Assembly: GCA_023150875.1 (NCBI GenBank)
Contig: JAKLKC010000001.1
Coordinates: 186,001-250,000 of the forward strand
Length of the DNA: 64,000 nt
Direction of reading: 5' to 3'
Source of the DNA: Myxococcota bacterium
Lineage (GTDB): Bacteria > Myxococcota_A > UBA796 > UBA9615 > JAKLKC01
Shown: piece after piece, positions 34,137 through 60,953 of the stretch
Position numbering within the stretch: position 1 is the stretch's first letter
Layout: each line of letters opens with the position of its first letter
Program-made: the position numbers and the translations under genes
Notes under the pieces: generated by a model
What the model was told of the DNA's origin: nothing
Database searches by the model: none
What the model saw: only the letters and a program-made list of their open reading frames with translations

Positions 34137-35714
34137 TCAGCCCCCCCCCTCGCCGTCGGCGCCGCCCCGGCCCCGCACCGCCAGGCCGTAGCGCTTGACC
34201 AGGCGGGTCAGCACGTGACGGCTGGTGAGCCCCAGCTCCCGCCACGCCGGCTCCTGACGGCCGCCGTGGCGGTCGAGGCACTCCTGGATGACCTCGGGGG
34301 CGATGCTGAGGGGGTCTACGCCCGGGGCCTCCGGGACGGAGGGGGTGGGAGGGACCGAGGCCGTGGGGACCCCCGGGGACGCGGACCCCGGCTGGGTGGC
34401 GGGGGCGGGCGCGGGGGGGAGGGGATCGGGGGAGTCGCCGGGGGGCGGGAACCCCTCCCAGACGTCAAGAGTCTCCCCCCGGGACCGGGACATCGCCTGC
34501 CAGAGCAGGGCGTCCAGCTCGCGGATGTGGGTGGTGTAGCGGTGGCGGACCAGCGCGCTCATCAGCGTGGAGGAGATCCGGGGGAAGGAGCGGGGATCCC
34601 CGTCGGGGAAGTACCGGCCCGCGAGCAGCGGATCGCCGGAGGCGACGCGGCGCAGCAGGTGCGCCGCCAGCAGGGGGACGTCCTCGCGCCGGTCGTTCAG
34701 GTCGGGGACCTCCACGCGGATCCGCAGGCGGGCCAGCACGTCCTCCTTGAGGGCGGCCTCGGGGCGGTTGGTGGCGGCGACGAGGCGGAAGTCGGCCCGG
34801 CGGGACTTGGACTCCCCGAGCCGCTGGTACTCCCCCTGGTCCAGGACCCGGAGCAGGTGGGCCTGGAGGGCCTGGGGCAGCTCGCCGAACTCGTCCAGGA
34901 ACAGGGTGGACCCGTCCGCCTCTCCGATCAGGCCCGGCCGCTCGGGCATGCCGGGGTTGGGGTAGCTCCGGGCGTTGCCGAACAGCTCGGCGTCGATGAG
35001 GCCCTCGGGGAAGGTGGCGGCGTTCCGGGAGACCATGGGCCGCCCCCCTCGGGGGGAGCCGGCGTGGATCGCCTGGGCGACCAGCTCCTTGCCGGTGCCG
35101 CTGGCGCCGCGGACGAGGACGTGGGCGGTCCGCCCGGCCACGAACGCGATCCGCTCCCGCAGCTCCCAGGCCGCCGGGCTCTCCCCCACCAGGCCGCTCG
35201 GGTCCGGCCCGCCGAAGGCATGGAGGGGCGGGGCGGGCGTGCCCGGCGCGAAGGAGCGCAGCGCCCACGGGCGGGCGGCGCAGAGCATGACCGCCTGGTG
35301 GCGGATCTCCAGCACGTCCCCGGGGGCGAGCTCCGCGCTTTGGGTCTCGCTCCCGTTGTGGAGCACCGGGCACCGCCCCACGTTCTCCACCCGCAGCGAG
35401 CCCGCCGATCCGCCCTCGAACCGGAGCTGGTCCCGGGAGATCCGCGGGGAACGCAGGGGTCCCGTCGGGATCGTGAGCCCGGGCCGGTGCCGCGCCCACT
35501 CGGCGCGGGTCCCGGCGTCGTCCGGGGTCGCCTCCCGGCGCCCCAGCACCATCGAGACGCCGGGGTGCCCCCCGGGGACCAGGGCCACCTCCCCGATCCT
35601 CCCGGGTTCGTCCACGGACCACACCAGCACCAGCGCCGTGACGGCGCGGGGCGCGCCCGGCGCCGCCTCCCTCCAGGCGCTACCCGAGTTCAGGAACGTG
35701 ACCGTCACCGTCAT
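34137..35714 (-). CDS. FHA-AAA-HTH regulator, sigma-54-activator-like but without GAFTGA
   Basis: A 525-residue protein. Residues about 15-145 form an FHA-like domain (PRISRDQLRFEGG, LRVENVG, NGSETQSAELAPGDVLEI), which binds phosphothreonine in known proteins. Residues about 165-395 form the AAA domain with RGASGTGKE, STLFLDEFGELPQ and RLVAATNRPEAALKEDV. The loop where GAFTGA should be reads NARSYPNPGMPERPGL, so the usual sigma-54 contact is missing. A Pro/Ala-rich linker and a C-terminal HTH (WRELGLTSRHVLTRLVKRYGL) follow. The ATG at 35714 lies 11 bases from the end of an inserted repeat element and has no clear ribosome site. It is on the same strand as the repeat-protein gene and close to it. 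Confidence 0.88.
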   Translation of the reverse strand: MTVTVTFLNSGSAWREAAPGAPRAVTALVLVWSVDEPGRIGEVALVPGGHPGVSMVLGRREATPDDAGTRAEWARHRPGLTIPTGPLRSPRISRDQLRFEGGSAGSLRVENVGRCPVLHNGSETQSAELAPGDVLEIRHQAVMLCAARPWALRSFAPGTPAPPLHAFGGPDPSGLVGESPAAWELRERIAFVAGRTAHVLVRGASGTGKELVAQAIHAGSPRGGRPMVSRNAATFPEGLIDAELFGNARSYPNPGMPERPGLIGEADGSTLFLDEFGELPQALQAHLLRVLDQGEYQRLGESKSRRADFRLVAATNRPEAALKEDVLARLRIRVEVPDLNDRREDVPLLAAHLLRRVASGDPLLAGRYFPDGDPRSFPRISSTLMSALVRHRYTTHIRELDALLWQAMSRSRGETLDVWEGFPPPGDSPDPLPPAPAPATQPGSASPGVPTASVPPTPSVPEAPGVDPLSIAPEVIQECLDRHGGRQEPAWRELGLTSRHVLTRLVKRYGLAVRGRGGADGEGGG

Positions 35715-35725
35715 GACGGCGCATT

Positions 35726-35936
35726 CTAGTACGTCGTTCCAGAGAAAGTTCCCCAGTTTCCGAGTTCGTACTCGGGGTCGTCGGCGTCGCGAACCCGTAA
35801 GCGGACAGCCCGGTAGGGCGGGGGCTTGTCCCCCGCCGAAGCCCTGCGGCGGGGGACGAGCCCCCGCCCTACGTTCCGGATCGGGTGGGCCTGGGAACGG
35901 AGAAACTGGGGAGGAACCTTCGGAACGACGTACTAG
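35726..35936. mobile_element. MITE-like element with 15-base perfect terminal inverted repeats
   Basis: CTAGTACGTCGTTCC at 35726-35740 is the exact complement of GGAACGACGTACTAG at 35922-35936. The match continues inward imperfectly (CCCAGTTTC on the left, GAAACTGGG on the right). There is no transposase gene inside, so this is a non-autonomous element of about 211 bases. A TA at each tip would suit a TA-targeting (IS630/Tc1-like) transposase. Its left end is 11 bases upstream of the regulator start codon. Confidence 0.7.
35813..35872. repeat. Large palindrome inside the MITE-like element
   Basis: Two 26-base arms (35813-35838 and 35847-35872) are complementary at 25 of 26 positions around an 8-base centre. 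Each arm is itself a hairpin (GGCGGGGG with CCCCCGCC). It resembles REP-doublet type palindromes and would form a strong RNA or DNA hairpin. Confidence 0.8.
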
Positions 35937-36005
35937 TACGTCGCCACGGGGAGAGTCGCGCCGTTCCCGAGTCCGCGTCCCGGTTCGTGGGCGTCGCGGA
36001 TCCCG
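35935..36005. repeat. Diverged direct copy of the element's left end
   Basis: CTAGTACGTCG recurs at 35934-35944, and the bases that follow align with the element's left arm: CCGAGTCCGCG here against CCGAGTTCGTA, and GGGCGTCGCGGATCCC against CGGCGTCGCGAACCC. Identity is about 70% over 45 bases by eye. The joint CGACGTACTAGTACGTCG is a perfect 18-base palindrome at 35927-35944. Confidence 0.5.
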
Positions 36006-36125
36006 GCGCGGCGGATCCTGCCCCGGGGGCAGGGGGGTGCCGACGGGTCAGGCGGTACCGGCAAGAACGCCACGAGCCCCGATCCGGCGAGTTGCCGATC
36101 GGGGCCGGGCTGACGATCCGCCGGC

Positions 36126-36530
36126 TCAGTCCGCGCGGACGGCGGAGCGGACGCGGAGGCCGTGGTTGTCGGTGAGGGAACCGGCGCGGACGGCGGAGCG
36201 GACGCGGAGGCCGTGGTTGTCGGTGAGGGAACCGGCCCGCACCGCCGAGCGGACGCGGAGGCCGTGGTTCTCGGTGATCGCGCCGGCACGCACCGCCGAG
36301 CGGACACGCAGGGAGTGGTTGTAGCTCCCACCGGCACGCACCGCCGAGCGGACACGCAGGGAGTGGTTGTAGCTCCCACCGGCTCGCACCGCCGAGCGGA
36401 CACGCAGGCCGTGATTGAAGCTCCCGCCGGCACGCACCGCCGAGCGGACCCGCAGGCCGTGGTTCTCGGTGATCGCGCCAGCCCGCACGCCGCTCTTCAC
36501 CCGCAGGGAAGGAGTCGACTCGGACGAACG
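36126..36530. repeat. Tandem 48/51-base DNA repeats coding the repeat protein
   Basis: The coding DNA is built of 48- or 51-base units, with adjacent copies nearly identical (for example the two copies starting near 36133 and 36184). Third-position differences exist between the early and late units, so part of the array is old and part is recently duplicated. Copy number may vary between strains. Confidence 0.8.
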
Positions 36531-36581
36531 GGGGGCGAGGGTGGTGGGGAGGGCGCGGAAGCAGGGGGTGAGGGTCGTCAT
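36126..36581 (-). CDS. Repeat protein of eight 16-17 residue LRVRSAVRAG..NH units
   Basis: A 151-residue protein. A 24-residue Thr/Pro-rich leader (MTTLTPCFRALPTTLAP start) precedes eight units. The first is SLRVKSGVRAGAITENH; the others are GLRVRSAVRAGGSFNH, GLRVRSAVRAGGSYNH, SLRVRSAVRAGGSYNH, SLRVRSAVRAGAITENH, two of GLRVRSAVRAGSLTDNH, and a shortened last unit GLRVRSAVRAD. It is highly basic, with a single Cys in the leader. Every unit but the last has AG followed by G, A or S, which is like double-glycine processing sites, and ends in NH. ATG with GGAG eight bases upstream. It lies behind a sigma-54-type promoter. I recall uncharacterised short proteins with similar LKVK/VKAGG-NHN repeats in other bacteria but cannot verify. 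A secreted peptide precursor or a small solenoid are both possible. Confidence 0.8.
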   Translation of the reverse strand: MTTLTPCFRALPTTLAPRSSESTPSLRVKSGVRAGAITENHGLRVRSAVRAGGSFNHGLRVRSAVRAGGSYNHSLRVRSAVRAGGSYNHSLRVRSAVRAGAITENHGLRVRSAVRAGSLTDNHGLRVRSAVRAGSLTDNHGLRVRSAVRAD

Positions 36582-36652
36582 GGCGAAGTCTCCGGGAGAG
36601 AGGGGGTTTCTTTTCTCGGGGCCGCTCGTTGCCGGCCGCGTCCTACCCCTAG

Positions 36653-36668
36653 AGCACGGGCCGTGCCA
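36653..36668 (-). promoter_or_regulatory. Candidate sigma-54 promoter of the repeat-protein gene
   Basis: Read on the minus strand: TGGCACGGCCCGTGCT. Against the consensus TGGCACGNNNNTTGCW only one position differs (G for the first T), and GG and GC are separated by exactly ten bases. Transcription would start near 36641, giving a leader of about 60 bases before the ATG at 36581. Coded next to a sigma-54-activator-like regulator. Confidence 0.7.
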
Positions 36669-36777
36669 GGATCCGATCACAATCTGCATGTCATTGAAAC
36701 TACAGTGTTTTTACGTACACGAACGGAGGGATCCCCCCCTCCGGTCCCCCGTTCGCGCGGCGAGGGGCCACACGGGA

Positions 36778-36924: not shown

Positions 36925-39666
36925 ATGCCGACCTACGACCCCTGGGGACAGGCCGCGGCCCACTTCGCCGCCCGCCACGGCCTCGATCCCGGCGCCGCCC
37001 GGGAGCTGGTGGACCTGGTGTCCTCCGCCCTCTCCGTCCCGGCCAGCCCCGTGACCCTGCCCTGGGAGTCCGGGATCCACGAGGCCCCGGCTCCGGCGAC
37101 CACGGTGTTCACCGCCGTCTCCCTGGGGGGCGGTCCGGCGGCCCCGTCCCCCGCCGGAGGCGGAGCGGCGCCGGATCCCTCGGCCCCCCCTCGGGCCCAA
37201 GGCGCCGAGACTGCCCCCTCGGCGCCCCCGCCCGCCGGCGAGCCCCTGGGCGCCTACGCGGACCTCGGGCCCCTCGGGCAGGGGGGAATGGGGGAGGTCC
37301 GCAGGGTGTGGGACTCCACGCTGCGCCGCGCCCTGGCCCTGAAGGTCATCCACCCCGGGCTTGCCGCCCGCGCGCAGGCCCGGGAGCGCTTCTACGAGGA
37401 GGCGCGGGCCACCGCCCAGCTCCAGCACCCCGCCATCGTGCCCATCCACGAGATGGGGACCCTCCCCGACGGCCGGCCCTACTACACCATGAAAGAGGTG
37501 CAGGGGCGCACCCTCGACGAGCTGATCCTGGAGGCCCACGCCCCCCGGGCGGAGGAGGACGGCGGCGGTCCCGCCCGGGTCCGGCGGCTGGTGGAGGTCT
37601 TCTCGCGGGTCTGCGAGGCGGTCGCCTACGCCCACTCCCGGTCCGTCATCCACCGGGACCTGAAGCCGGCCAACGTGATGGTCGGCGACTTCGGCGAGGT
37701 CCTGGTCCTGGACTGGGGTCTCGCCAAGGTCCTCGGGGCGGGCGAGGAACGGGAGGGCGGCGACGGCGGGGACCCAGCCTCGCCCGAGGCGCCCCTGCAG
37801 GACCCCCTGCTGACGCGGCCGGGATCGGTCCAAGGGACGCCCGCCTACATGCCGCCGGAGCAGGCCCGCGGCGAGTCCCACCGGGTGGGGCCGGCGTCGG
37901 ACGTGTACGCCCTGGGCTGCGTCCTGTACCAGTTGCTCTCCGGGAGGCCGCCGTACCGGGGGGCCAGCGCCTGGGCCGTGCTCGTCCAGGTCAACCAGGG
38001 GCCTCCCCCTCCCCTGGCCGAGGTCGCCGCCCGCGGGGGGGCCCCTCCGGTCCCCGAGGAGCTGCGCCGGATCGTGGCCCGGGCGATGGACCGGGACCCG
38101 GAACGGCGCCACCCCGACGCGGGCGCCCTCGCCCGGGACGTGTCGGCGTGGCTGGACGGCGCCCGCCGGCGCGAGGCGGCCCTGGCGCTGGTCGCCCGGG
38201 CCGACGCCCTGGCCCCCGAGGTGACGGCGCTCCGGCGGCGGTCGGCGGAGCTGAGGGCGGAGGCGGAGCGCGCCCTGGAAGGGGTCCCCCCCGCCGCCCC
38301 CCTGGACCGCAAGCGCCCGGGATGGCTGCTGGAGGACGAGGCGGCGCGGCTGGGTCGGGAGGCCAACGTCCGGGAGGTCGAGTACGTCCAGACGCTCCGG
38401 GCGGCCCTGGTGCAGGTGGAGGACCTCCCCCTGGCCCACGACCGCCTCGCCGACCTCTACCGGGCGAGGCTGGAGGCGGCGGAGGCCGCCCGGGACGAGG
38501 CGACGGCGGCGGAGAACGAGGCACTGCTCCGCGCCCATGGCCGGAGCCGCCACCTCGCCTGGCTGCGGGGCGACGGCGCCCTGACGCTCCTGACCGATCC
38601 CCCGGGGGCGGAGGTGGTCCTCGAACGCTACGTCGAGCAGGACCGCCGGCTGGTCGCGGTGGAGGATCGGGTGCTGGGGCGGACGCCGCTCCGCGGGGTC
38701 GCGCTGCCCCGGGGCAGCTACCGCCTGCGGCTGCGCGCCCCGGGCCGCGCCGAGGTCCTCTACCCGGTCCGCGTCGGCCGGGGCGAGCACTGGGACGGCG
38801 TGCCCCCCGGCGAGGCGGATTCGCGGCCCATCGCGCTCCCCTCCCCCGCGGACCTGGCCCCTGGCGAGGTCTACGTCCCCGGCGGCTGGATGATCGCGGG
38901 AGGAGATCCCGCGGCCAGCGGGCTCCCCCGGTGCCGGCTGTGGGTGGACGGGTTCGTGGTACAGCGTTTCCCCGTCACCAACGCCGAGTACATCGAGTTC
39001 CTGGACGACCTGGTGGCCCGGGGCCGCGAGGAGGAGGCCCTGCGCGCCGCCCCCCGGGAGCGGGCCGTGGACGGAGAGGAAGCACCGCTGGTCTACGGCC
39101 GGGACACCGCGGGCCGTTTCATGCTGAGGCCCGACGCCGACGGCGACCTGTGGGGACCCGACTGGCCCGTGGTCCTGGTGGATCACGGCGCGGCCAGCGC
39201 CTACGCCCGGTGGCTCGGGGAGCGGCGGCGGCAGGCGTGGCGGCTGCCCGGGGAGCTGGAGTGGGAGAAGGCGGCCCGGGGCGTCGACGGCCGGGACTTC
39301 CCCTGGGGCGACTTCCTCGACCCCACCTGGTGCCTCATGCGGGACAGCTACGTCGGCAGGCCCACGGCCCTCTCCGTGGACAACTACCCCACCGACGAGA
39401 GCCCCTACGGGGTGCGGGGGATGGCCGGCGGCGTGCGGGACTGGTGCGCCGACCCCTACGCGGTGGGCGGTCCGCCCGTGTCCGGCGGCCGGGCGGAGAT
39501 CCCCTCGTTCGGGGGCGACGGCCTGCCCCCCGAGACCCGGCGGGCGGTCCGCGGGGGCGGCTGGGGGGCGTCCTCCGCGTCCTGCCGGGTGACGAACCGC
39601 AACGGCTTCTCCGGCCGGACCCGCTACCCGGTCTTCGGCTTCCGGCTGGCCCGCTCCTTCCCCTGA
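36925..39666 (+). CDS. Ser/Thr kinase - PEGA - SUMF1 (FGE-like) fusion
   Basis: A 913-residue protein. A Pro/Ala-rich start precedes the kinase domain (about 110-415): glycine loop GPLGQGGMGEV, ALKVI lysine near 139, HRDLKPANV near 242 and DWG in place of DFG near 262, as in many planctomycete-type kinases. A helical, charged stretch (415-540) is probably coiled coil. A PEGA-like domain follows (about 550-625, TDPPGAEVVLERY, GSYRLRLRAPG), then a SUMF1/formylglycine-enzyme-like domain (about 645-912: PVTNAEYIEFLDDL, WRLPGELEWEKAARG, RGGGWGASSASCRV, FGFRLARS). No membrane helix is evident. ATG with GGAG upstream. It is convergent with the transporter operon, 11 bases apart. Confidence 0.9.
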   Translation: MPTYDPWGQAAAHFAARHGLDPGAARELVDLVSSALSVPASPVTLPWESGIHEAPAPATTVFTAVSLGGGPAAPSPAGGGAAPDPSAPPRAQGAETAPSAPPPAGEPLGAYADLGPLGQGGMGEVRRVWDSTLRRALALKVIHPGLAARAQARERFYEEARATAQLQHPAIVPIHEMGTLPDGRPYYTMKEVQGRTLDELILEAHAPRAEEDGGGPARVRRLVEVFSRVCEAVAYAHSRSVIHRDLKPANVMVGDFGEVLVLDWGLAKVLGAGEEREGGDGGDPASPEAPLQDPLLTRPGSVQGTPAYMPPEQARGESHRVGPASDVYALGCVLYQLLSGRPPYRGASAWAVLVQVNQGPPPPLAEVAARGGAPPVPEELRRIVARAMDRDPERRHPDAGALARDVSAWLDGARRREAALALVARADALAPEVTALRRRSAELRAEAERALEGVPPAAPLDRKRPGWLLEDEAARLGREANVREVEYVQTLRAALVQVEDLPLAHDRLADLYRARLEAAEAARDEATAAENEALLRAHGRSRHLAWLRGDGALTLLTDPPGAEVVLERYVEQDRRLVAVEDRVLGRTPLRGVALPRGSYRLRLRAPGRAEVLYPVRVGRGEHWDGVPPGEADSRPIALPSPADLAPGEVYVPGGWMIAGGDPAASGLPRCRLWVDGFVVQRFPVTNAEYIEFLDDLVARGREEEALRAAPRERAVDGEEAPLVYGRDTAGRFMLRPDADGDLWGPDWPVVLVDHGAASAYARWLGERRRQAWRLPGELEWEKAARGVDGRDFPWGDFLDPTWCLMRDSYVGRPTALSVDNYPTDESPYGVRGMAGGVRDWCADPYAVGGPPVSGGRAEIPSFGGDGLPPETRRAVRGGGWGASSASCRVTNRNGFSGRTRYPVFGFRLARSFP

Positions 39667-39677
39667 ACCCGCCCCCG

Positions 39678-41756
39678 TCAGGGGTGCGCGATGACCACCA
39701 GGGCCCGGGCCCGGTCCAAGGTGACCCCCATGGCGCGCCTCAGGGTGGCGGGGTCCAGGGCCCCGAAGGTCTCGTCCAGGACGACGAGGTCCGCCCCCTG
39801 GAGCAGGGCCCGGGCCAGGAAGACGCGGCTCCGCTCCCCGTGGGAGAGCTGCCAGCCCGTCTCCCCCACCACCTGGAGCATCCCCGACGGCATCCGGTCC
39901 AGGAGGGGGCCCAGCTCGAGCGCCCGCAGCAGCTCCTCCGCCTCCCGCACCACGGCGTCGGTGGCGGGCCAGCCCCGCCCCATGAGGACGTTGAACGCCA
40001 GGGTCCCGGTGAGCACGTGGTTCTCGTGGAACTGGGGCGCCGAGGCGACCCGCCGCCGCCACGCCGCCGCCCCCAGGGTGCGGTGGTCGATGCCCGACAG
40101 CCGGACGAGGCCCGAAGTGGGGGTCCTCAGCCCGGTGAGGAGCGAGGCGAGGGTGGACTTCCCCGCCCCCGAGGGCCCGAGGAGCAGCACCCGGTCCCCC
40201 CGGTCCACCCGGAGGTCGACCCCCTGGAACACGGGGCGGGGCTGGCCGGGGTGACGGTACGAGACCTGGCTGGCGTGGACCACGGCGGCCCCCTCCGAGG
40301 TCGGCAGCCGCTCCACCCCCGTCGCGGCGGCGGGGGCGCGGCGCTCGGCGGCCCGGAACAGGTCCCGGACCTGCTCCCAGGCGAGGGCGGACCCCATCAG
40401 CCCGGTGATCGCCGGGGTCAGCCCGCTCCAGGCCCGGGAGCCCAGCATCGCCGCTGCGATCCCCCCGGCGACGGCCGCCGTCGACCCGCCCCCGGACACG
40501 AAGCCGGGCAGCGCCGCGCCCAGGGCCACGACGAGGAAGCCCCTCGCCCCCGCCAGTTGCAGGGCGACCTCCCAGGCGTCCATCCTCCGGGACGAGCCGA
40601 GGTAGGCCTCCAGCGCCGCGTCCTCCTCCAGGTGCCACAGGGAGGGGGACTCCTGGGCGAGGCGGGTGCGGTGCCCCACCAGGCGCTCCACCAGTCCGTG
40701 GGTCATCTCCAGGCGCTGCCGCGTCCACTCCTTGCGGGCGCGCCAGGCACCCCGGGCGATCCAGGCGACGGCGAGGGCGTGGACCGCGACCGCGGCGGCC
40801 CCCGCGGGGCCCAGGACGCCGGTGAGGATCGCCCCCGCGACCCCCAGCTCCAACAGGCCGGCGGTGGCCAGGAAGCCCGCCTGGGTCGCCAGGGTCTCCA
40901 CCTCGTCCGACTCGATGACCCGCGCCATGTGGAGGCCCGCCCCCGCGTGGCGCACCTCGCCGGGCTCGAGGGCCAGGGCCCCCGCCAGCAGGCGGCGCTT
41001 GAGGGCGGCCCCGAGGTCCAGGGCCACCAGCCCCGCCCACCACACCCCGGCGGCGTGGATGGGGACGGCGGTGGCCAGCACCAGCGCCCAGCCCCACAGC
41101 CACCCCCAGTCCAGACGCCCCGCCAGCGCCCCCCGGCCCAGCATCACCCACGCCGTCACCTCCAGGGCCAGGGCCACCAGGAAGGCCGCCCCGTGGGCCA
41201 GGGCCCGCCCCGGGACCCGCGCCTCGGAGAGCTGGGCGGGGAACGAGTCCCCGGGCTCCCGCCGGACGGCCCAGGCCCGGCCCAGCTCCGCCGATCCGGA
41301 CCGGGCCTCCATCAGGCGCTCCCGGGCCGCGCCGCGGCGGCGCTCGGGGATCCCGGCGGCGTCCAGGACCCTCTCGATCCCCGGGCCGTGCTGGGCTTCC
41401 AAGGCGCCGGAGAGCAGCGCCCGCAGCTCCCGGGTGGGGACCCTCCGCACCGAGAGATCGGGGGCGAGCACCCGGGGGCGGCCCCTCCCCGGGGCCAGCA
41501 GGACCAGGAACCCGGAGTCGCCGGCGGCGAGGAGGGCCGGGCCCGCCCCCTCCAGCACGTCCCCCGCGTCCGCGAACCGCACCGCCAGGGGTTCCAGCTC
41601 GATGCCCAGGGGGGAGGCCCATCCGCCGAGCCAGCGGTCCACGTCCTCGCCCGGCCCCAGGCGTCCCGGGGGCGCCGGGCCGTCCACGCCGGCGGCCCGG
41701 GCCAGCGCCTGGGCGGCCTCGCCCAGCCGTTCCCGGGGCCAGAGCAGGGCGGTCAC
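39678..41756 (-). CDS. ABC exporter with cysteine-less C39-like N-terminal domain
   Basis: A 692-residue ABC protein. Residues 1-170 look like a C39 peptidase-type domain without any cysteine (GPALLAAGDSGFLVLLAPG, VLAPDLSVRRVP), hence non-catalytic. Residues about 175-440 are membrane helices. The ATPase domain has Walker A GPSGAGKSTLA, signature LSHGERSR (a variant of LSGGQ), Walker B LVVLDETFGALD, and ends abruptly at VVIAHP, just at the H-loop histidine. It lacks the usual 40 or so residues beyond. GTG start overlaps the upstream stop as GTGA. It is the last gene of the HlyD-ABC-ABC operon. It may pair with the C39 ABC as a heterodimer. Confidence 0.88.
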   Translation of the reverse strand: MTALLWPRERLGEAAQALARAAGVDGPAPPGRLGPGEDVDRWLGGWASPLGIELEPLAVRFADAGDVLEGAGPALLAAGDSGFLVLLAPGRGRPRVLAPDLSVRRVPTRELRALLSGALEAQHGPGIERVLDAAGIPERRRGAARERLMEARSGSAELGRAWAVRREPGDSFPAQLSEARVPGRALAHGAAFLVALALEVTAWVMLGRGALAGRLDWGWLWGWALVLATAVPIHAAGVWWAGLVALDLGAALKRRLLAGALALEPGEVRHAGAGLHMARVIESDEVETLATQAGFLATAGLLELGVAGAILTGVLGPAGAAAVAVHALAVAWIARGAWRARKEWTRQRLEMTHGLVERLVGHRTRLAQESPSLWHLEEDAALEAYLGSSRRMDAWEVALQLAGARGFLVVALGAALPGFVSGGGSTAAVAGGIAAAMLGSRAWSGLTPAITGLMGSALAWEQVRDLFRAAERRAPAAATGVERLPTSEGAAVVHASQVSYRHPGQPRPVFQGVDLRVDRGDRVLLLGPSGAGKSTLASLLTGLRTPTSGLVRLSGIDHRTLGAAAWRRRVASAPQFHENHVLTGTLAFNVLMGRGWPATDAVVREAEELLRALELGPLLDRMPSGMLQVVGETGWQLSHGERSRVFLARALLQGADLVVLDETFGALDPATLRRAMGVTLDRARALVVIAHP

Positions 41757-44344
41757 GAGGGGACCTCCGCCGCCGCCACCTCGTGGTGGCGCCAGCGCGG
41801 GTCCTCCCACACCTCGGCCCGCAGCGCCGCCTCCTCGTCCAGGAGGGCGCGGTAGCGGCCGGCGGGGTCCGCGGCCAGGGCGGCGGGATCCCCGTCCTCC
41901 ACCAGCCGCCCTCCCTCGATCACCAGCACCCGGGGCATGTCCCGGGTCTCCTCGATGTCGTGGGTGATGCACAGGACCGTCGCCTGGGACCAGCGGGCCC
42001 TCACCCTCGCCAGGAGGGCCCGGCGCCGGTCCCGGTCGAGCCCCCGGAAGGGCTCGTCCAGGACCACCAGGCGCGGCGCGGGGCGGTGGAGGGCCCGCCC
42101 CAGGCGGACCCGCTGCCCCTCCCCTCCCGACAGGGCGCCCCCGCCCTCGCCGATGGGCGTCCCCAGGCCCTGGGGGAGGCGCACCAGCACCCCCTCCAGC
42201 TCGGCGTCCCGCAGGGTGAGGTCCAGGGGCTCCGGCGAGGAGTCCCCCGCGCCGTAGGTGAGGTTCTCGAGGAGTCCCCGGTTCCAGAGCTGCACCCCGG
42301 GGTCCACCCAGGCGGTGGCGGCCCGGAGGGCCTCCAGGCCCGCCTCGTCCAGGGGCGCCCCGTCCACCAGCACCCGCCCCGCCGCCGGCCTGTGCCAGCC
42401 CAGCAGGAGCCCCACCAGGCTCGACTTCCCCGCCCCCGACGGGCCAACCACCGCCACGTGGCCCCCGGCGGGGACCTCCAGGGACACCGCGGAGAGGACC
42501 GGGTGCCCCCCGGCGACCACGTCGACCTCCTCCAGGCGGATCGCCACCCCGTGGGCGTTGGACGGCCGGACCGGCGCCTGCGCCGCGCCCGGAAGGGGCG
42601 CCTCTTCCAGGGCGCCCAGGGGTTCCAGGAGGCGCAGGGTGACGTTGCGCAGGTGGGGGAGCTGCCGCAGTCGCCGGCCCAGCTCCTGCCCCAGGAAGGG
42701 GAGCTGGAGGGCCCACCAGGCGAAGAGGAGCATCCCTCCCCCGTCCGAAGCCCGGGAGGCGTGGGAGCCGACGAGGACCGCGGCGACGGCCAGGGGCAGG
42801 GCGCCCTGGAGGGCCTCAACCGCCACCGCCGTCCGCAGCAGGGCGCGCCCGGTCAGGGCCCAGTCCACCAGCAGCGACTCGTGCTCCCGCCGCACCGACC
42901 GCTCGGCGGCGTGGGCCCGGATGGGCACCAGCCCCAGCAGCGCGTCCAGGTAGAAGCGGAAGAGCGCACCTCCGTGGACCCTCAGCCTCAGGTCCCGCTC
43001 CTCCAGGGCCGGCAGGCACGCGAGGGGGATCCCCACGCAGGCCGCCGCCCCCACCAGCACCAGGGGAGCCCCCGGCGGGTCCAGCCACACCAGGCCCACC
43101 GCGGTCGCCAGCAGGGCGGCGCCGGTCCTCGCGCCGTCGGCCACCAGCTCCACGAGGGAGCGCAGCCGATGGAGGGCGTGGGCCCGCTGGGCCATGTCGG
43201 ACACCGGCCGGCTCGCCAGGTAGCGGTCCCCCAGGCGGGGCACCTTGGCCTGGAAGGCCGCCCGCACCCTCGCCTCCACCAGGCGGCCCAGGCGGCGGGT
43301 GGCGGCGCGGATGGGGACCTCCAGGAGCGTCACCAGGACCAGCCAGGCCAGCAGCAGCGCCGCGGCGGCGAGCCTCTGGCGGAAGGGCCCCAGCTCCCGG
43401 CCGAGGTCCAGGGCCCCCCGGAAGAGCAGGGCCTCCACCAGGGCCGACGCCGCGGCGACCCCCACCGCCGCCCCCAGGAGCCACGGCGGGCGCAGGCCCG
43501 AGATCCGCCAGAGGTCCCGCCAGGGGGACGCCCGCGCCGTGGTGACCGCCGCCCTCAGCTCGGGGGAGAGGTCCTGGGACGGGCCCTCGGGCCGGGGCCC
43601 CACCACCTTCAGGCAGATGGCGCCCCTCACCCTCGCCTCCCCGTCCGGCAGGGGCTCGATGGCCCGCTGGGAGGCGGGCAGGACCCCCGCGTCCCCGCGG
43701 GCCTGCTCCCGCAGAGAGGCCAGCACCCGCTCCGCCTCGCCTCCCCGGCGCACCGCTCCGGCCTCCACCAGGTCGGTCACGGCCCGGAGCGCGGCGTCCA
43801 GGGAAGCGGCCCCCTGGACCCCCTCCGGCGCGAGGAAGGCCGCCGGGTCCACGCCGAGCCCCCTGAGGCGGCCCGCCTGGACGGTCCGGAAGGTCTCCTG
43901 CCCCGTCCACTCCGCCACCTGGTCGCCGGGCAGGACGAGGGTGTGGACGTAGACCTGGGCCAGGAACTCCCTCACCGGCAGGAAGCGCCGGCCCACGGCG
44001 GGGTCCATGACCTGGATCCAGGACCCGTGGAGCCGCCAGGCGACGACGAAGTGGGTCAGCCCGTTCCCCGCGCGCACCACCACGATGGCGGGGAGGGTCT
44101 TCGCCTCGGGGAGGAGGAGGTGATCGAGAGGGGAAAGAGTCTGCTCCACCTCCAGGCCGAGGCGGTTCCCCACGTCCTCCAGCACGTCGATGGAGGTGCC
44201 GTCCACGTCGGTCTGGCAGGCCTCCCGGAGCCGGCCGTAGTGGGCGGGGATCCCGTGGCCCGAGAGGAGGCAGGTGAGCGCCGCCGGGCCGCAGTCCATC
44301 TCCGAGGTCTGGACGACCTCCGGGGCGAAGAAGCTCCTCCTCAT
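41753..44344 (-). CDS. Peptidase-C39 ABC exporter
   Basis: An 863-residue protein. The N-terminal domain (1-145) is a C39 bacteriocin-processing peptidase with Q12, C18 (SEMDCGPAALTCLL), H98 (GLTHFVVAW) and D114 (VMDPAVG), so the catalytic set is complete. C39 domains cut leaders after GG, GA or GS while the peptide is exported. A long linker (about 150-275) is unusual. Membrane helices span about 290-560, and the ATPase domain has GPSGAGKSSLVG, LSGGEGQRV, LVVLDEPFRGLD and ITHDIEE, all intact. ATG overlaps the upstream hlyD-like stop as ATGA. Cargo is likely the repeat protein, by inference. Confidence 0.92.
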   Translation of the reverse strand: MRRSFFAPEVVQTSEMDCGPAALTCLLSGHGIPAHYGRLREACQTDVDGTSIDVLEDVGNRLGLEVEQTLSPLDHLLLPEAKTLPAIVVVRAGNGLTHFVVAWRLHGSWIQVMDPAVGRRFLPVREFLAQVYVHTLVLPGDQVAEWTGQETFRTVQAGRLRGLGVDPAAFLAPEGVQGAASLDAALRAVTDLVEAGAVRRGGEAERVLASLREQARGDAGVLPASQRAIEPLPDGEARVRGAICLKVVGPRPEGPSQDLSPELRAAVTTARASPWRDLWRISGLRPPWLLGAAVGVAAASALVEALLFRGALDLGRELGPFRQRLAAAALLLAWLVLVTLLEVPIRAATRRLGRLVEARVRAAFQAKVPRLGDRYLASRPVSDMAQRAHALHRLRSLVELVADGARTGAALLATAVGLVWLDPPGAPLVLVGAAACVGIPLACLPALEERDLRLRVHGGALFRFYLDALLGLVPIRAHAAERSVRREHESLLVDWALTGRALLRTAVAVEALQGALPLAVAAVLVGSHASRASDGGGMLLFAWWALQLPFLGQELGRRLRQLPHLRNVTLRLLEPLGALEEAPLPGAAQAPVRPSNAHGVAIRLEEVDVVAGGHPVLSAVSLEVPAGGHVAVVGPSGAGKSSLVGLLLGWHRPAAGRVLVDGAPLDEAGLEALRAATAWVDPGVQLWNRGLLENLTYGAGDSSPEPLDLTLRDAELEGVLVRLPQGLGTPIGEGGGALSGGEGQRVRLGRALHRPAPRLVVLDEPFRGLDRDRRRALLARVRARWSQATVLCITHDIEETRDMPRVLVIEGGRLVEDGDPAALAADPAGRYRALLDEEAALRAEVWEDPRWRHHEVAAAEVPS

Positions 44345-45534
44345 GGGGGGTCCGGCGCCACACCCGGCGCCGCCGGGGGGCCGCCCCCCTGGACCGCCCG
44401 GCCGGCGAGGCGGAGCACCAGGGTGGCGGGGCTCACCCTCTCCACCTCCACCTCGACCACCCCCGTCAGCCCGTGCTGGACCGGGAGCGACGGCGGGACA
44501 GCGGACGGCAGGACCTCCAGCTCGACCCGCACCAGGCCCCCTTCGGCCTCGGTGCCGACCCCGGAGACCCGGGCGGGGAGGGACCCGTAGACCAGCGACG
44601 GGAAGCCGTCCAGGCGCACGCGGGCGGCCCGGGAGGGCAGCACCCTGCCGACGGCCCGGGCCGCGGGGAACGCCGCCACCACCCTCAGGGCCCCCTCGGG
44701 CACCACCAGGGCGACCACCTCCCCCGGGTCCAGGGCGCTGCCCGGGCGGATCGGCGAGACCGAACCCAGGCGGCCGGCGACGGGGGCGCGGACCGTGCGC
44801 CGCTCCAGGTCCTCGGCGGCCCGGTGGACGGCGGCGCGGGCGGCGGCCACCTCCCCCTCGGCCCTCGCGGCGTCCGTCAGCGCCTCCTGGTGCTCCGCCC
44901 GGGCCGCCTCCAGCGCCGCCCGCCTCTCGTGGCCCAGGCGGGCCAGGACCTGGGCGGAGGCCTGGGCGGCGGAGTCGGCGCGGCTCCTCTCGGCCTCGAT
45001 GCCCCGGTACTCCAGGTCCGCGACCAGCCCCGAGGCGTGGAGCGTGGAGAGGCGCTCGACCTGCACCTGGGAGTAGGCGGAGGTGGCCCGCGCCGAGTCC
45101 AGCGCCGCCCGGGCCTCTCCCAGGGCCCCCTCCAGGGTCCGCTCCTCCTCCGCCACCGCCCGGCCCGACGCCTCCGCACGGGCGCGGGCCCGCTCGGCGC
45201 CGGCCGCCGCCGCCGCCAGCCTCAGGTCCGCCTCGTCCTTCAGGGCGCGCTGGACGCCGGACTCCAACTCCACCAGCGCCTCGCCCCGGGCCACGGCGCC
45301 CCCCAGGACCAGGTGGGAGGCGACCACCCTGCCCCCGTCCAGGGCGGCGGCGGAGTGGGGAGCCGCGCCGACCTCCAGGCGAGCCCACGCGCTGGGCTCC
45401 ACGACCGTCACCCCCGCGCCGAGGAACCACGCCAGCCACGCGCCCACCCCGAGCACGGCCACGACGAGGCCCCCCCGGGCGGGTCGACCCTCCCGGGCGG
45501 CGATGGACCTCAGCGTGCGCGGGAAGTGGTTCAA
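44341..45534 (-). CDS. HlyD-family membrane fusion protein
   Basis: A 397-residue protein. A short cytoplasmic start (NHFPRTLRSIAAREG) precedes a membrane helix (GGLVVAVLGVGAWLAWFLGAG, about 19-40), a beta/lipoyl segment (VASHLVLGGAVARGEALVELES), a long coiled coil (about 95-245) and RTVRAPVAGRLGSVSPIRPGSALDPGEVVALVVPEGAL, the classical second lipoyl half. It should link the inner-membrane ABC exporter with an outer-membrane channel, which is not in the window. The start is uncertain: TTG at 45534 fits the family N-terminus, but no ribosome site precedes it. First gene of the transport operon. Confidence 0.85.
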   Translation of the reverse strand: MNHFPRTLRSIAAREGRPARGGLVVAVLGVGAWLAWFLGAGVTVVEPSAWARLEVGAAPHSAAALDGGRVVASHLVLGGAVARGEALVELESGVQRALKDEADLRLAAAAAGAERARARAEASGRAVAEEERTLEGALGEARAALDSARATSAYSQVQVERLSTLHASGLVADLEYRGIEAERSRADSAAQASAQVLARLGHERRAALEAARAEHQEALTDAARAEGEVAAARAAVHRAAEDLERRTVRAPVAGRLGSVSPIRPGSALDPGEVVALVVPEGALRVVAAFPAARAVGRVLPSRAARVRLDGFPSLVYGSLPARVSGVGTEAEGGLVRVELEVLPSAVPPSLPVQHGLTGVVEVEVERVSPATLVLRLAGRAVQGGGPPAAPGVAPDPP

Positions 45535-45571
45535 CGCAGTGCGTCCGGCGGGGAGGATACACGGGGCCGCG

Positions 45572-45700: not shown

Positions 45701-46789
45701 ATGTCCTCCGATCCCCGCGTCGTCCCCGATCCCGACGAGGAAGCCTGGTCCGCCGCGGCGGAGGCCCTCGACCGCGCTGCGGACCTCCTGGACGCGGGGC
45801 GCGTGGACGACAGCGCCCGCGAAGCCCTCCAGGCGGCGTCGACCCTGGCCCGGGTCGTCGGCCCGGACCACCCGGACCACGGCAACGCCCTCGCCACCCT
45901 GGGGGCCGCCCTGGCCGCCTCGGGGGACGTGCGGGGGGCCATCGACGCCACCCGCCGGGCCCTGGCGGTCCACGACCTGTGGCCGGGGGAGGAGAGCGTC
46001 GCTCCCCTGGCCGCCGCCGCCCGGGCACAGCTCGGCGACCTGTTGATGAAGTCGGGCGCCTACGCCGAGGCGATCCGCCTGGCCGAGGAGGTGCGGGACG
46101 ACGCGGTGGCCCGGTGCGGCCCCGACTCCCCCGAGGCGGCCCGGGCGTGGAACTCCATCGGCGTCTGCTGGAAGCTCCAGGGGCGGTGGGCCGATGCCCG
46201 GGAGGCATACTCCCAGGCGGAAAAGGCGTGGGAGCGCGCCGGGGCGCCCCTCCCCGCGACGCTGTTCCACAACCTCGCCGGGCTGGCCTGCGCCACGGAC
46301 GACTTCGCCGCCGCCGAGGTCCACGCCCGCGCCGCCGTGGAAGCGCGCCGGGGCGAGGGGGATCCCTTCGCCCTCGGGACCGACCTCGCCGGACTCGGCG
46401 ACGCCCTGGCGGGCCAGGGGAGGCTCCCGGAGGCGGTCGAGACGTACCGGGAGGCCATCCAGCTCCTGGGATCCGCCCGCCCCCACCACCCCGAGATCGC
46501 TTACGCGCTCCACAACCTGGGGGACGCCCTGGCGGACCTGGGGAAGGCACGGGAGGCGGAGGCCGCCTACCGCGACTCCATCCAGCGCAAGGTCCGGGCC
46601 TTCGGCGAAGAGGACGGCGAGGTGGCCGCCTCCCGGAACAACCTGGCGGCGCTGCTGGCGACGGCGGGGCGGCGGGAGGAGGCGAAGCTCCTCTCGCGGC
46701 GGGCGGTCCGCGCCGCGCGGCGCCTGCCCGCGGGCCATCCCGTGCGCTCGGGGTGCGAGGCCCTGGCGCGGGAGCTGGGCGTCCGCTGA
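45701..46789 (+). CDS. TPR protein (TPR_12/NB-ARC-partner type)
   Basis: A 362-residue soluble protein made of about seven TPR units of the longer 42-residue type (ALATLGAALAASGDVRGAIDATRRALAVHD, AWNSIGVCWKLQGRWADAREAYSQAEKAW, DLAGLGDALAGQGRLPEAVETYREAIQLL, ALHNLGDALADLGKAREAEAAYRDSI). Such arrays bind peptides or partner proteins. It has no signal peptide or catalytic domain. ATG at 45701. It diverges from the transport operon, so a shared regulatory region is possible. Confidence 0.82.
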   Translation: MSSDPRVVPDPDEEAWSAAAEALDRAADLLDAGRVDDSAREALQAASTLARVVGPDHPDHGNALATLGAALAASGDVRGAIDATRRALAVHDLWPGEESVAPLAAAARAQLGDLLMKSGAYAEAIRLAEEVRDDAVARCGPDSPEAARAWNSIGVCWKLQGRWADAREAYSQAEKAWERAGAPLPATLFHNLAGLACATDDFAAAEVHARAAVEARRGEGDPFALGTDLAGLGDALAGQGRLPEAVETYREAIQLLGSARPHHPEIAYALHNLGDALADLGKAREAEAAYRDSIQRKVRAFGEEDGEVAASRNNLAALLATAGRREEAKLLSRRAVRAARRLPAGHPVRSGCEALARELGVR

Positions 46790-49081: not shown

Positions 49082-51283
49082 TCAGATCCCCAGCAGCACG
49101 AACACGGCGCCGGCGTCGGCCCCCCCCTCGTCCCAGCCGGGCGCGGCGATCACCAGGTCGGCGCGGCCGTCGCCGCTCAGGTCCCCGGGGGCGGCCAGGC
49201 GCTCCCCCACCCGGTCACCGGCGTGCTCGCCCACGAAGGCCACGGCGCCGGTGCCCAGCAGGACCTCGCCCGCGAGGGCGTGGAGGGGGCCGGGGACGAC
49301 GAAGACGCCACCGGGCGCGACGTCGCCCCCGGGGGCGCCCACCGCCGCGTCCGACGTGCCGTCCCCGTCCAGGTCCCCCGCCACCACCAGCACCGAGGCG
49401 GCGGATCCGGGGATCCCCACGAAGGAGACCTCCGCGTCCGCGGAGTCCCGGAGCGCGCCGAAGCCCCCGGCGGCCCCCCGGAAGACCGAGACCCTCCCCG
49501 AGCCCGACACCGCGCCGGGAGCCCCCATCCAGATCTCCCCGCGACCGTCGCCGTCCACGTCGCCGAGCCCCCCGACCTGCGCCCCCAGCTCCTCGTGCTC
49601 CCCGGTGGTGACGAACACGGTGTTGGCGTCTTCCATCAGGGTCAGCGACCAGCTCGCGGCGCTCCGCCCCAGGAAGAGGGCGACGCGGCCGTCGCCGGCT
49701 CCGTAGCCGGGGCTCCCCACCAGCAGGTCCGCCACGCCGTCGCCGTCCACGTCCGGCACCACGGCGACCGCGCCCCCGACCCCGGCGCCGTCCGACGGGC
49801 TCCCCAGCAGCGCCACGTCGGCCTGGGAGTCGTCCGAGATCCCCCCCCACGCCCCGCCGAGGAACACGTAGGCGGCGCCCGCCCCCGCGCCGGGGGCACC
49901 CACCACCAGGTCGTCGGTCCCGTCGCCGTCCAGGTCCCCGGCCCCCAGAGCCGCCCCGAAGGCCGATCCCGCCGACGTCCCCTCGATGGCCACCGCCGAG
50001 GCGAGGGGGAAGTCCCCGGCCCCGAACGCCCCCATCACCAGGTAGATCCGACCGAGCCCCCCCGCCGCCCCGGGCGCCCCCACGGCGACGTCGGGCTGCC
50101 CGTCCCCGTCGAAGTCGCCCACCGCCAGCGATGCCCCCGCCTCGTCCCCCGCGGCGCCTCCCAGGAGCAGGGCGTCGGCCAGCAGGTCCAGGGTGAAGGG
50201 ATCGCCGGCCACACCGGGGACCCTCTCGGCCCTCCCCGCCTCCGCCGCCGCCCCACCGCCCCCCGGGGCGCCCACCACCAGGTCCGGCAGGGCGTCGCCC
50301 GCCAGGGCTGCCGCCGCCAACGAGGCGCCCAGCCGGTCGCCGGGCCCCCCGAGCCGCGCCGTGGGGAAGGTGGACAGCGAGATGGGCCCCGCCGCGGGGA
50401 AGGCGTCCACGCGGCCGTCGCAGTCCTCGTCGGTCCCGTCGGCCACGTCCAGGGCGTGGGGACCGATCCCCGGATCGCCATCGTCGCAGTCGCCTTCGCA
50501 GGGGCCGGTCCCGTCGCCATCGCCGTCGGGCACGTCGTCGGGGACCCCGTTGCAGTCGCCGTCGGCCCCGTCGCAGACCTCGACGCCCCCCGGCACCACG
50601 TCGGCCCGACCGTCGTCGCAGTCACCCCCGCAGGTCGTGTAGCCGTCGCCGTCCAGGTCGAACCCCTCGTCCGCCTCCCCGTCGCAGTCCTGGTCCACCC
50701 CGTCGCACGCCTCGACGCCCCCCGGCGCCACGTCGGCCCGGTGGTCGTCGCAGTCGCCCCCGCAGCTCGTGTAGCCGTCGCCGTCCAGGTCGAACCCCTC
50801 GTCCACCTCCCCGTCGCAGTCCTGGTCCACCCCGTCGCACGTCTCCGCGGCGGCGGGGTGCACTCCCGGGTGGGCGTCGTCGCAGTCCCCCTCCCCCTCG
50901 CAGGCCCCGTCCCCGTCGACGTCCAGCCCCGGGTCCTCGTCCGCGTCGCCGTCGCAGTCCTCGTCGGCGTGGTCACACGTCTCGACGGCACCGGTGTACA
51001 CGCCGGGATCGGCGTCGTCGCAGTCCCCGAAGCAGGTCGCCACGCCGTCCCGGTCCGCGTCGAACCCCTCGTCCACCTCGCCGTCGCAGTCGTTGTCCAG
51101 GCCGTCGCACCCCTCCGAAGCATGGGGAGAGACCGACGCCTCGAAGTCGTCGCAGTCCCCCTCCGCCGCGGTGACGCCGTCGCCGTCCGCGTCCCCGCCC
51201 GGGGTGTGTCCGGGGGAGCACCCGGCGGCGAGGGCCAGCGCGGCGAGCAGAGAGGTCATCGCACGGATCGGGCTTTGTCCCAT
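49082..51283 (-). CDS. Lipoprotein with six MopE-type units and FG-GAP repeats
   Basis: A 733-residue surface lipoprotein. Lipobox LALAAGCSPG near residue 20. Residues about 30-290 contain six Cys/Asp-rich units (DADGDG...GDCDD...E.CDGLDNDCDGE). Residues about 310-730 contain about seven FG-GAP/integrin-alpha-like blades with calcium loops (SLAVGDFDGDGQPDVAVGAPG, GDLDGDGTDDLVVGAPG, PDVDGDGVADLLVGSPG). Both parts suggest calcium-dependent binding on the cell surface. ATG with GAGGAGG upstream. It follows the kinase gene on the same strand. Confidence 0.9.
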   Translation of the reverse strand: MGQSPIRAMTSLLAALALAAGCSPGHTPGGDADGDGVTAAEGDCDDFEASVSPHASEGCDGLDNDCDGEVDEGFDADRDGVATCFGDCDDADPGVYTGAVETCDHADEDCDGDADEDPGLDVDGDGACEGEGDCDDAHPGVHPAAAETCDGVDQDCDGEVDEGFDLDGDGYTSCGGDCDDHRADVAPGGVEACDGVDQDCDGEADEGFDLDGDGYTTCGGDCDDGRADVVPGGVEVCDGADGDCNGVPDDVPDGDGDGTGPCEGDCDDGDPGIGPHALDVADGTDEDCDGRVDAFPAAGPISLSTFPTARLGGPGDRLGASLAAAALAGDALPDLVVGAPGGGGAAAEAGRAERVPGVAGDPFTLDLLADALLLGGAAGDEAGASLAVGDFDGDGQPDVAVGAPGAAGGLGRIYLVMGAFGAGDFPLASAVAIEGTSAGSAFGAALGAGDLDGDGTDDLVVGAPGAGAGAAYVFLGGAWGGISDDSQADVALLGSPSDGAGVGGAVAVVPDVDGDGVADLLVGSPGYGAGDGRVALFLGRSAASWSLTLMEDANTVFVTTGEHEELGAQVGGLGDVDGDGRGEIWMGAPGAVSGSGRVSVFRGAAGGFGALRDSADAEVSFVGIPGSAASVLVVAGDLDGDGTSDAAVGAPGGDVAPGGVFVVPGPLHALAGEVLLGTGAVAFVGEHAGDRVGERLAAPGDLSGDGRADLVIAAPGWDEGGADAGAVFVLLGI

Positions 51284-59902: not shown

Positions 59903-60325
59903 TCAGCCTGCACCGGCCGCCAAGTCGTCCGCCACCGCCCCCGCCACGTCGTCGACCGACTCACGGTCCACGGAGAGGTGCTGCTGCGCCCGGAGCCCGA
60001 ACGGCAGTTCGGCCCAGGGGACCGCCCCCACCAGCACCGGTACGAGCCGCTTGCCCTGCCTCCGGCTCGCGTTCAGCGCCGCGCCGAGTTCGATGGCGGT
60101 CCAGGAGCCATCGACGTAGTCCTGCGACACGAGGAGCACGAGGCTCCGGCTCTCCTCCATCGCACGCTGCACCGCCACGTCCCAGTCGTCCCCGGCGAGG
60201 AGTTCTTCATCCGTCCAGACCTTCAGTCCCCTGCCACGAAGCGCGGATGCGATCTCCCGCGCGATGTCCGAATCGCTGCGGGCGTGGGAGATGAACACGT
60301 CGTAGGCGCGATTAGCCATCTTCAC
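59903..60325 (-). CDS. TIR-domain protein (second of pair)
   Basis: A 140-residue protein that is almost only a TIR domain: YDVFISHARSDSDIAREIASALRGRGLKVWTDEELLAGDDWD, LVLLVSQDYVDGSWTAIELGAALNAS with the catalytic-type Glu in the AIELG helix, and KRLVPVLVG. Bacterial TIR domains cut NAD+ or signal in antiviral defence. No partner domain is present in the chain. GTG at 60325 (ATG at 60319 possible), overlapping the end of the other TIR gene by 14 bases. Confidence 0.9.
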   Translation of the reverse strand: MKMANRAYDVFISHARSDSDIAREIASALRGRGLKVWTDEELLAGDDWDVAVQRAMEESRSLVLLVSQDYVDGSWTAIELGAALNASRRQGKRLVPVLVGAVPWAELPFGLRAQQHLSVDRESVDDVAGAVADDLAAGAG

Positions 60326-60743
60326 GACCCTTTCCCCCGACCCGCGCGCGGAGTTGGGAGAGGTAGCCCTCGATCTCGTTGAGCTCCAGGAAGTGGGTCC
60401 GCTTCAGGCGAACGGGCATCGCCGCATCGGCCCCGATGGACTCCGCCGACTCGCCGTGGAGGAGGACGACGATGCGCTTCCGCTGGCCCCAGAAGATCCC
60501 GATCTCCATGAGCAGGTACCGGCTCTGCTTCGCCCACGGGGTCAACAGCACGAGGGCCTCGTCCGCCCCATCCGCCGCCTCCAGGATCCGGTCCTCGAAG
60601 TCGTCCCCGTGGTCGATGTCTGCCGCGTCCAGGAAGGCCGACGCACCGGCCTCCTCGACGTGCCGCGCGATCTGCCGTGCCACCCACGTGTCAACCGAAG
60701 AGTGGGAGATGAAAACAGAATAGCGATCCCGGACCTTGACCAT
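60312..60743 (-). CDS. TIR-domain protein (first of pair)
   Basis: A 143-residue TIR domain: YSVFISHSSVDTWVARQIARHVEEAGASAFLDAADIDHGDDFED, LVLLTPWAKQSRYLLMEIGIFWGQRKRIVVLL with Glu in LLMEIG at the catalytic place, and a C-terminal helix. It differs substantially from the second TIR protein, so the pair is not a recent duplication. The overlap of the genes suggests one transcript. Both are somewhat lower in G+C than their neighbours. Confidence 0.9.
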   Translation of the reverse strand: MVKVRDRYSVFISHSSVDTWVARQIARHVEEAGASAFLDAADIDHGDDFEDRILEAADGADEALVLLTPWAKQSRYLLMEIGIFWGQRKRIVVLLHGESAESIGADAAMPVRLKRTHFLELNEIEGYLSQLRARVGGKGREDG

Positions 60744-60953
60744 GCCTGAGCCCCGCCCCCACTCGTCTCCACCGACGGAGGTTAGCACTCGATCCCGTCC
60801 CCCGCAAGGCTGAACCGGGCGCGAACCCACCGGACCCGGCTCGGCCAGCCCCAACCGTCAGGGCGTCCGCCCCCACTCTCGCCCGCCCGCCGGGACGCCC
60901 CGACGCCATCGTTGATCCCGCCCGCTCCCTGCCTTAAATTCCCGGTTCCTCCG

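Follow-up and report, generated by a model that had tools for sequence, protein, structure and literature searches.

The gene studied here raises the question of what a cell makes from a protein that consists almost entirely of one short unit repeated in tandem. It lies in a 64,000-nucleotide stretch of DNA that was analysed as a whole and is called the window below. The first-pass annotation had left two answers side by side, a multi-core peptide precursor or a small solenoid. Of these, the first is well supported, by relatives with other unit numbers, by co-occurrence with a C39 exporter and by a motif shared with the leader-core junction of microviridins, while the solenoid is the weaker of the two, with a beta model of low-to-moderate confidence behind it. 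The product is probably a tandem precursor of secreted peptides in which each unit brings its own copy of the exporter's cutting signal.

The peptide gene and its repeat array

The ORF is a real gene at the coordinates first given for it (Table 1), with its ATG at 36581, its stop codon at 36126-36128 and a Shine-Dalgarno sequence, GGAG, at 36590-36593. The leader, originally given as 24 residues, counts 25. The description of the protein as eight near-identical units holds for the LRV[RK]S starts, of which there are eight; the first unit is diverged and the eighth truncated, which leaves seven full units of 16-17 residues and a partial one. The 10-residue core is identical across units 2-7, and TRF reports the array with a 48-bp period and 86-87% matches (scores 295 and 322). 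A strict form of the motif, searched in six-frame translation across all 64 kb, gave 7 matches, all inside the peptide ORF, and none in shuffled sequence.

The DNA of neighbouring units had been described as almost identical and that of early and late units as different, and this agrees with the mean core identity, which declines from 0.87 between adjacent units to 0.57 at a distance of seven, as is expected of a locally expanding array. The further claim that the array is under selection is upheld by the core of units 2-7, where 54 synonymous and 0 nonsynonymous nucleotide differences were counted, whereas neutral change would give a synonymous fraction of 0.34; the differences were counted by unit pair and are not independent of each other. 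The genome has a second array, with units 91% identical and a homologous 3' flank, at the start of contig C132, and the hairpin behind the stop codon is present in this copy too. Behind the peptide gene lies an inverted-repeat element at 35714-35945 (gtacgtcgttcc ... ggaacgacgtac), and a related stretch in the opposite orientation is found near the C132 copy (L068 387-447).

Table 1. Positions of the peptide gene, its units and the neighbouring genes in the window
Feature	Position	Strand	Details
Sigma54-activator-like AAA protein	34137..35714	-	PF00158 2.8e-40
Hairpin 3' of the stop codon, possible terminator	36077..36104	-	read from sequence
Multi-unit precursor peptide gene (probable)	36126..36581	-	151 aa, pI 12.0
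Unit 8, truncated	36129..36158	-	stop after LRVRSAVRAD
Unit 7	36159..36209	-	LRVRSAVRAG-SLTDNHG
Unit 6	36210..36260	-	LRVRSAVRAG-SLTDNHG
Unit 5	36261..36311	-	LRVRSAVRAG-AITENHG
Unit 4	36312..36359	-	LRVRSAVRAG-GSYNHS
Unit 3	36360..36407	-	LRVRSAVRAG-GSYNHS
Unit 2	36408..36455	-	LRVRSAVRAG-GSFNHG
Unit 1, diverged core	36456..36506	-	LRVKSGVRAG-AITENHG
N-terminal extension	36507..36581	-	25 residues, MTTLTPCFRALPTTLAPRSSESTPS
Sigma54 (-24/-12) promoter	36653..36669	-	CTGGCACGGCCCGTGCT; 12/13 consensus positions, 71 nt upstream of ATG
Ser/Thr kinase fused to FGE-sulfatase domain	36925..39666	+	PF00069 1.3e-34, PF03781 2.1e-32
ABC2, second ABC protein of exporter	39678..41756	-	PF00005 1.6e-23; conserved third operon gene
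C39 peptidase / ABC exporter (PCAT)	41753..44344	-	PF03412 6.8e-20, PF00005 6.6e-21
HlyD-type membrane-fusion protein	44341..45555	-	PF13437 5.5e-8; start codon uncertain
TPR protein	45701..46789	+	PF13424 9e-38; blastp 1.6e-21 to L132 TPR

An unnamed family with a patchy distribution

No family in Pfam, NCBIfam or the PDB convincingly covers the window protein, and for the relative L006 no curated family of Pfam or NCBIfam rises above its cut-off. The Pfam family GBR2_CC reached 27.6 against a cut-off of 25 bits (E 2.6e-6) and was rejected as a composition match, given that no stretch passes alone and the best one spans 9 residues. Phage_XkdX, CHB_HEX_C, phrog_6592 and others from Pfam, NCBIfam and PHROGs were also short composition-type matches with no stretch passing alone. 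Plasmid matches in Rhodococcus and others (26-40% identity; annotation examined for one Rhodococcus ruber locus) were taken as low-complexity, as was a match in a Microcystis phage, which runs antisense to the annotated gene. No family member was confirmed in the viral contigs searched, and the motif strings had no match in the literature searched.

Relatives with the same unit do exist. A profile search with the unit, as had been proposed, found homologues that differ in unit number and keep the VRAG and NH positions. The first was found in an Acidobacteriia MAG (G039) and has 13 units of the form LxVKSxVKAGGLxxxNHNQG; this genome matches at 21 places spread over 14 contigs, with the weakest matches uncertain. 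With a two-unit profile the family was detected in 6/379 genomes of the window's phylum, with positives spanning five genera, in 1/297 of an even draw from the phylum of G039, and in 8/150 of the order of G039 (Acidobacteriota). The two phylum samples have no genome in common and are, therefore, taken as different phyla; that of the window may, to guess by its gene content, be Myxococcota. The 38 nearest relatives searched hold no convincing member, weak matches in L003-L005 being left out of the counts for want of VKAG..NH units, and the distribution of the family is for this reason patchy. The window protein is thus placed in an unnamed family that occurs in at least two bacterial phyla and that probably yields secreted 16-17-residue peptides.

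The anatomy of the unit was studied in 185 units from 43 proteins. The family core is [LM]x[VI][KR][ST]x[VLI][KR]AG, usually followed by 4-5 variable residues and NH. Position -1 is Gly in 185/185 units, an invariance that is partly owed to the search pattern, and position -2 is Ala in 175. Ser or Thr, half each, stands at -6 in 184 units, and V, L, I or M at -4 in the same number, with K/R dominant at -3 and -7, V/I/L at -8 and L/M at -10. The segment from AG to NH takes 130 different strings, and NH, often as NHNQ, is present in 174 units. The family proteins have from one to about 18 units, and many have only 1-2 (35-60 aa). Most relatives have no 25-residue extension and start straight at a form of MxxKTxVKAG (e.g., MKTKTNVKAG...), which means that a leader of about 10 residues suffices.

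Linkage to a C39 peptidase-ABC exporter

In the window, an operon of HlyD, C39-ABC and ABC2 genes lies 3.1-9 kb from the peptide gene on the shared strand, separated from it by the divergent kinase-FGE gene. The C39 site of the exporter has its Cys (in DCGPAAL), His and Asp, and the protein is 45-52% identical to the exporters of G258, G721 and G788. The TPR protein is a homologue of one encoded within the peptide-exporter operon of G721 (L132), a genome from the order of G039, where peptide, peptide, TPR, HlyD, C39-ABC and ABC2 follow each other on one strand, next to a divergent FHA-GAF-sigma54 activator. The exporter set, or the part of it held by the contig, is also close to family peptides in G258 (L063), G788 (L125) and G371 (L067), and to motif peptides lacking NH in G800 (L164). 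The usual cassette of G039 is an ECF sigma factor, a Ser/Thr kinase and the peptide, with the exporter elsewhere in the genome. Beside the window peptide gene no modifying enzyme or immunity gene was recognised. Farther along the window there are a protein with MopE-type metal-binding motifs and FG-GAP repeats and with 132-bp DNA repeats (49082-51283, minus strand), a NodU-type carbamoyltransferase (56854-59517, minus strand; PF02543, PF16861) and two adjacent TIR-domain proteins (59906-60854, minus strand; PF13676 5e-25 and 4e-16).

The exporter was then followed across genomes with a profile of the C39 domain and linker (A5). It is present in 13/14 peptide-positive genomes, and overall in 7% of the phylum sample and 13% of the order sample. 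In tests that ignore phylogeny, on evenly drawn samples, it was found in 5/6 peptide-positive versus 21/373 other genomes of the window's phylum (Fisher p=5.9e-6) and in 8/8 versus 12/142 of the Acidobacteriota order (p=2.4e-8); once the genomes that supplied the profile are removed, the values are 9e-4 and 1.4e-6, respectively. The exception is G214, which has two repeat loci and no match to the A5 profile.

The motif in single-core precursors

Genomes that have the exporter and lack the repeat family contain small ORFs with a ribosome site that carry the motif once, followed by unrelated tails. The search for motif ORFs near the exporter returned 8 matches versus 0 in a reversed-sequence control. 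In three genomes (G015, G218, and G086), microviridin precursors lie beside this exporter type (NF033738, 44.8-57.8 bits versus a cut-off of 26) and have V[KR]TxVKAG at the junction of the PFFxRF leader with the core, as in PFFMRF..EVKTDVKAG-AESG..TMKYPSDGDDD. The cluster of G015 (L159 9123-13369, minus strand; core TMKYPSDGDDD) is of microviridin type, with four ATP-grasp-like genes between precursor and exporter. The motif sits at the point where the microviridin leader is expected to be cut and is, therefore, read as the processing signal of the exporter in every unit of the window protein.

Other precursors with the motif are a small Cys-rich one near the exporter in G803, LSVRSRLRAG-AVAACCSCRDCCNNH (L232 9483-9638, plus strand), which matches no family, and a microviridin-like one beside an ATP-grasp gene in G214, PFFSRF..LAIKTNLRAG-AALQAKVTLKYPSDSDE. 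Small ORFs that carry the motif once and end in unrelated tails also occur near this exporter type, at L220 5088-5282, L217 13065-13196 and L157 12474-12596, and these are possible new RiPP-like precursors. In most exporter-only genomes (e.g., L213-L216) the stretch examined holds no motif ORF, indicating that the exporter has some cargo that is encoded elsewhere or carries a different signal.

Structure models

The AlphaFold2 model of the window protein, from a 15-sequence alignment, is beta-rich (pLDDT 67.7, pTM 0.54), and that of the 13-unit relative L006, from its single sequence, is a regular beta-solenoid (pLDDT 78.9, pTM 0.76). This suggests another fate for the array, in which the exporter trims an N-terminal leader only and the intact array, once outside the cell, would fold or polymerise into matrix or surface material, similar to a functional amyloid. 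The abundance of N, H and Q in the turns is in line with it, and C39 peptidases are also mentioned for an amyloid (Fap) secretion system (PMC5557850). Nonetheless, AlphaFold2 yields confident but unrealistic beta-solenoids on repeats (PMC11795689), so that the models neither establish nor exclude such a fold, and neither of them has a match in the PDB by Foldseek at E<=0.001. Against an intact array there are also the many family members with one or two units, the segment after AG, which is highly variable inside an otherwise conserved repeat, and the use of the motif as a leader-core junction in unrelated single-core precursors. Altogether, a secreted solenoid or amyloid-like material is unlikely.

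Promoter and regulation

The sigma54 promoter of the peptide gene is the sole site of 12/13 or better within the window. Sites of the same type are found 36-50 nt from the ATG of the G721 peptide genes (13/13 and 11/13) and of those in G214 (12/13 twice), and for each of these five sites the empirical p is 0.003-0.048. The remaining peptide genes tested, including those linked to ECF factors, have no comparable sigma54 site at that distance. The AAA protein at 34137-35714 is a possible regulator of the peptide gene; it has NARSYPNPGMP in place of the GAFTGA loop and may not act on sigma54, and for this reason the real activator may lie elsewhere. The kinase-FGE gene is a probable regulator.

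Kinase genes are recurrent neighbors of the family. In G039, of 12 contigs with an identified peptide, 9 have an adjoining kinase and 9 an ECF factor, and kinase genes are near the peptide in the window, L065, L067 and L135. Together with the nearly constant Ser/Thr at -6, this could point to an intracellular partner of the kinases, either a scaffold or a substrate phosphorylated at multiple sites, in which the S/T of K[ST]xV would be the phosphorylated residue. However, the same residue occurs in microviridin precursors that adjoin ATP-grasp-like genes and an exporter and not a kinase, it is simpler to take the kinase and ECF/sigma54 genes as regulators, and the co-occurrence with the exporter would be left unexplained, which makes this role very improbable.

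Proposed mechanism

For the multi-core precursor favored here, LRVRSAVRAG in each unit would be the signal by which the C39 peptidase-ABC exporter recognises and cleaves its cargo, and a short segment ending in NH would come after it. The exporter, composed of HlyD, C39-ABC and ABC2, would dock on the motif and cut past each ...VRAG, giving a series of peptides of 16-17 residues, for instance GSYNHSLRVRSAVRAG. Transcription would start from the sigma54 promoter, probably under control linked to the Ser/Thr kinase. We infer that it is the window exporter that cuts the peptide, at every unit and with the bond after VRAG as the predicted site, and the role of the peptides would most likely be that of a signal or an antimicrobial.

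Several observations run counter to the multi-core precursor. The signal is non-canonical, with AG instead of GG/GA/GS, K/R in the place of a hydrophobic residue at -7 and a length of about 10 residues (cf. PMC7018657, PMC10885120); the predicted peptides still end in the motif, so that its most conserved part stays in the product; and the peptide gene of the window lies outside the exporter operon. The G214 peptides have no exporter match at all, neither a modifying enzyme nor an immunity gene was recognised, and the model of L006 is a beta-solenoid. A further reading is that the peptide is exported and that its repeats are mostly replication slippage, with the first motif alone used and the rest functionless. 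Neighbouring units are indeed most alike and the array is duplicated at C132, but the core varies at synonymous positions only and the unit is kept across phyla, which shows selection on the units and makes this reading highly improbable.

More tentatively, and with somewhat less confidence than an even call would need, these genes may represent an undescribed and widespread class of poly-peptide precursors. Each unit would carry a PCAT signal, and one exporter would cut chains of as many as about 18 units, releasing mixed short peptides that vary at the N-terminus and are constant at the C-terminus, with transcription wired to Ser/Thr kinases via ECF sigma factors or sigma54. G039 alone would have over a dozen such genes, which, if true, might fit a peptide-signalling repertoire.

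Comparison with known systems

Class II microviridins are multi-core precursors with several consecutive cores, double-glycine-type motifs and a cognate C39 transporter (PMC13039773). The window protein would resemble them in having several consecutive cores on one precursor, and the microviridin precursors linked to this exporter type share its motif in the form V[KR]TxVKAG, but the window protein has neither the PFFxRF leader nor the TxKYPSDxED core, and its family reaches about 18 short units. Membership of the microviridins or graspetides was rejected, given that the protein does not match NF033738 and that a G015 ligase query found no ATP-grasp ligase in the window's own genome at 1e-5.

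With the double-glycine peptides of peptidase-containing ABC transporters such as ComAB/BlpAB, the unit shares a hydrophobic -4, a small -2 and Gly at -1. It differs from them by AG in place of GG/GA/GS, by K/R at -7, by a signal of 10 residues and by having one signal per unit and not per protein. Of the hydrophobic positions of a double-glycine signal, -4 is kept (V/L/I/M), -7 is K/R and -12 lies beyond the unit motif. PCAT-exported peptides are recognised by a C39-peptidase ABC exporter that is genetically linked to them or co-occurs with them, and this is found here. The window peptide would work like a double-glycine peptide; the ending is AG in 175/185 units and not GG/GA/GS, and it is therefore not filed as a canonical one.

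The three genes for HlyD, peptidase-ABC and ABC proteins recall the NHLP/NHLM export system, but no leader of Nif11 or nitrile-hydratase type was seen. Membership by TIGR03796/03797/03794 was rejected, with 175.9 versus 853.3 and 93.2 versus 709.4 for the first two and TIGR03794 absent for the window HlyD. The amyloid repeats of curli and Fap have about 20 residues and contain N, Q and G. The window array is similar in repeat length and in N/Q/G content, and the C39 peptidase mentioned for Fap adds to the likeness; it differs in showing no fold or sequence match, in bearing a processing motif in each unit and in having one- and two-unit members.

From known multi-core C39 precursors this family is set apart by the signal, the number of units and the absence of a linked ligase. 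The motif [LM]x[VI][KR][ST]x[VLI][KR]AG predicts cargo of one exporter type, among it microviridins and other RiPP-like precursors, in at least two phyla. It makes small genes that annotation usually misses findable, among them this previously unannotated precursor family.
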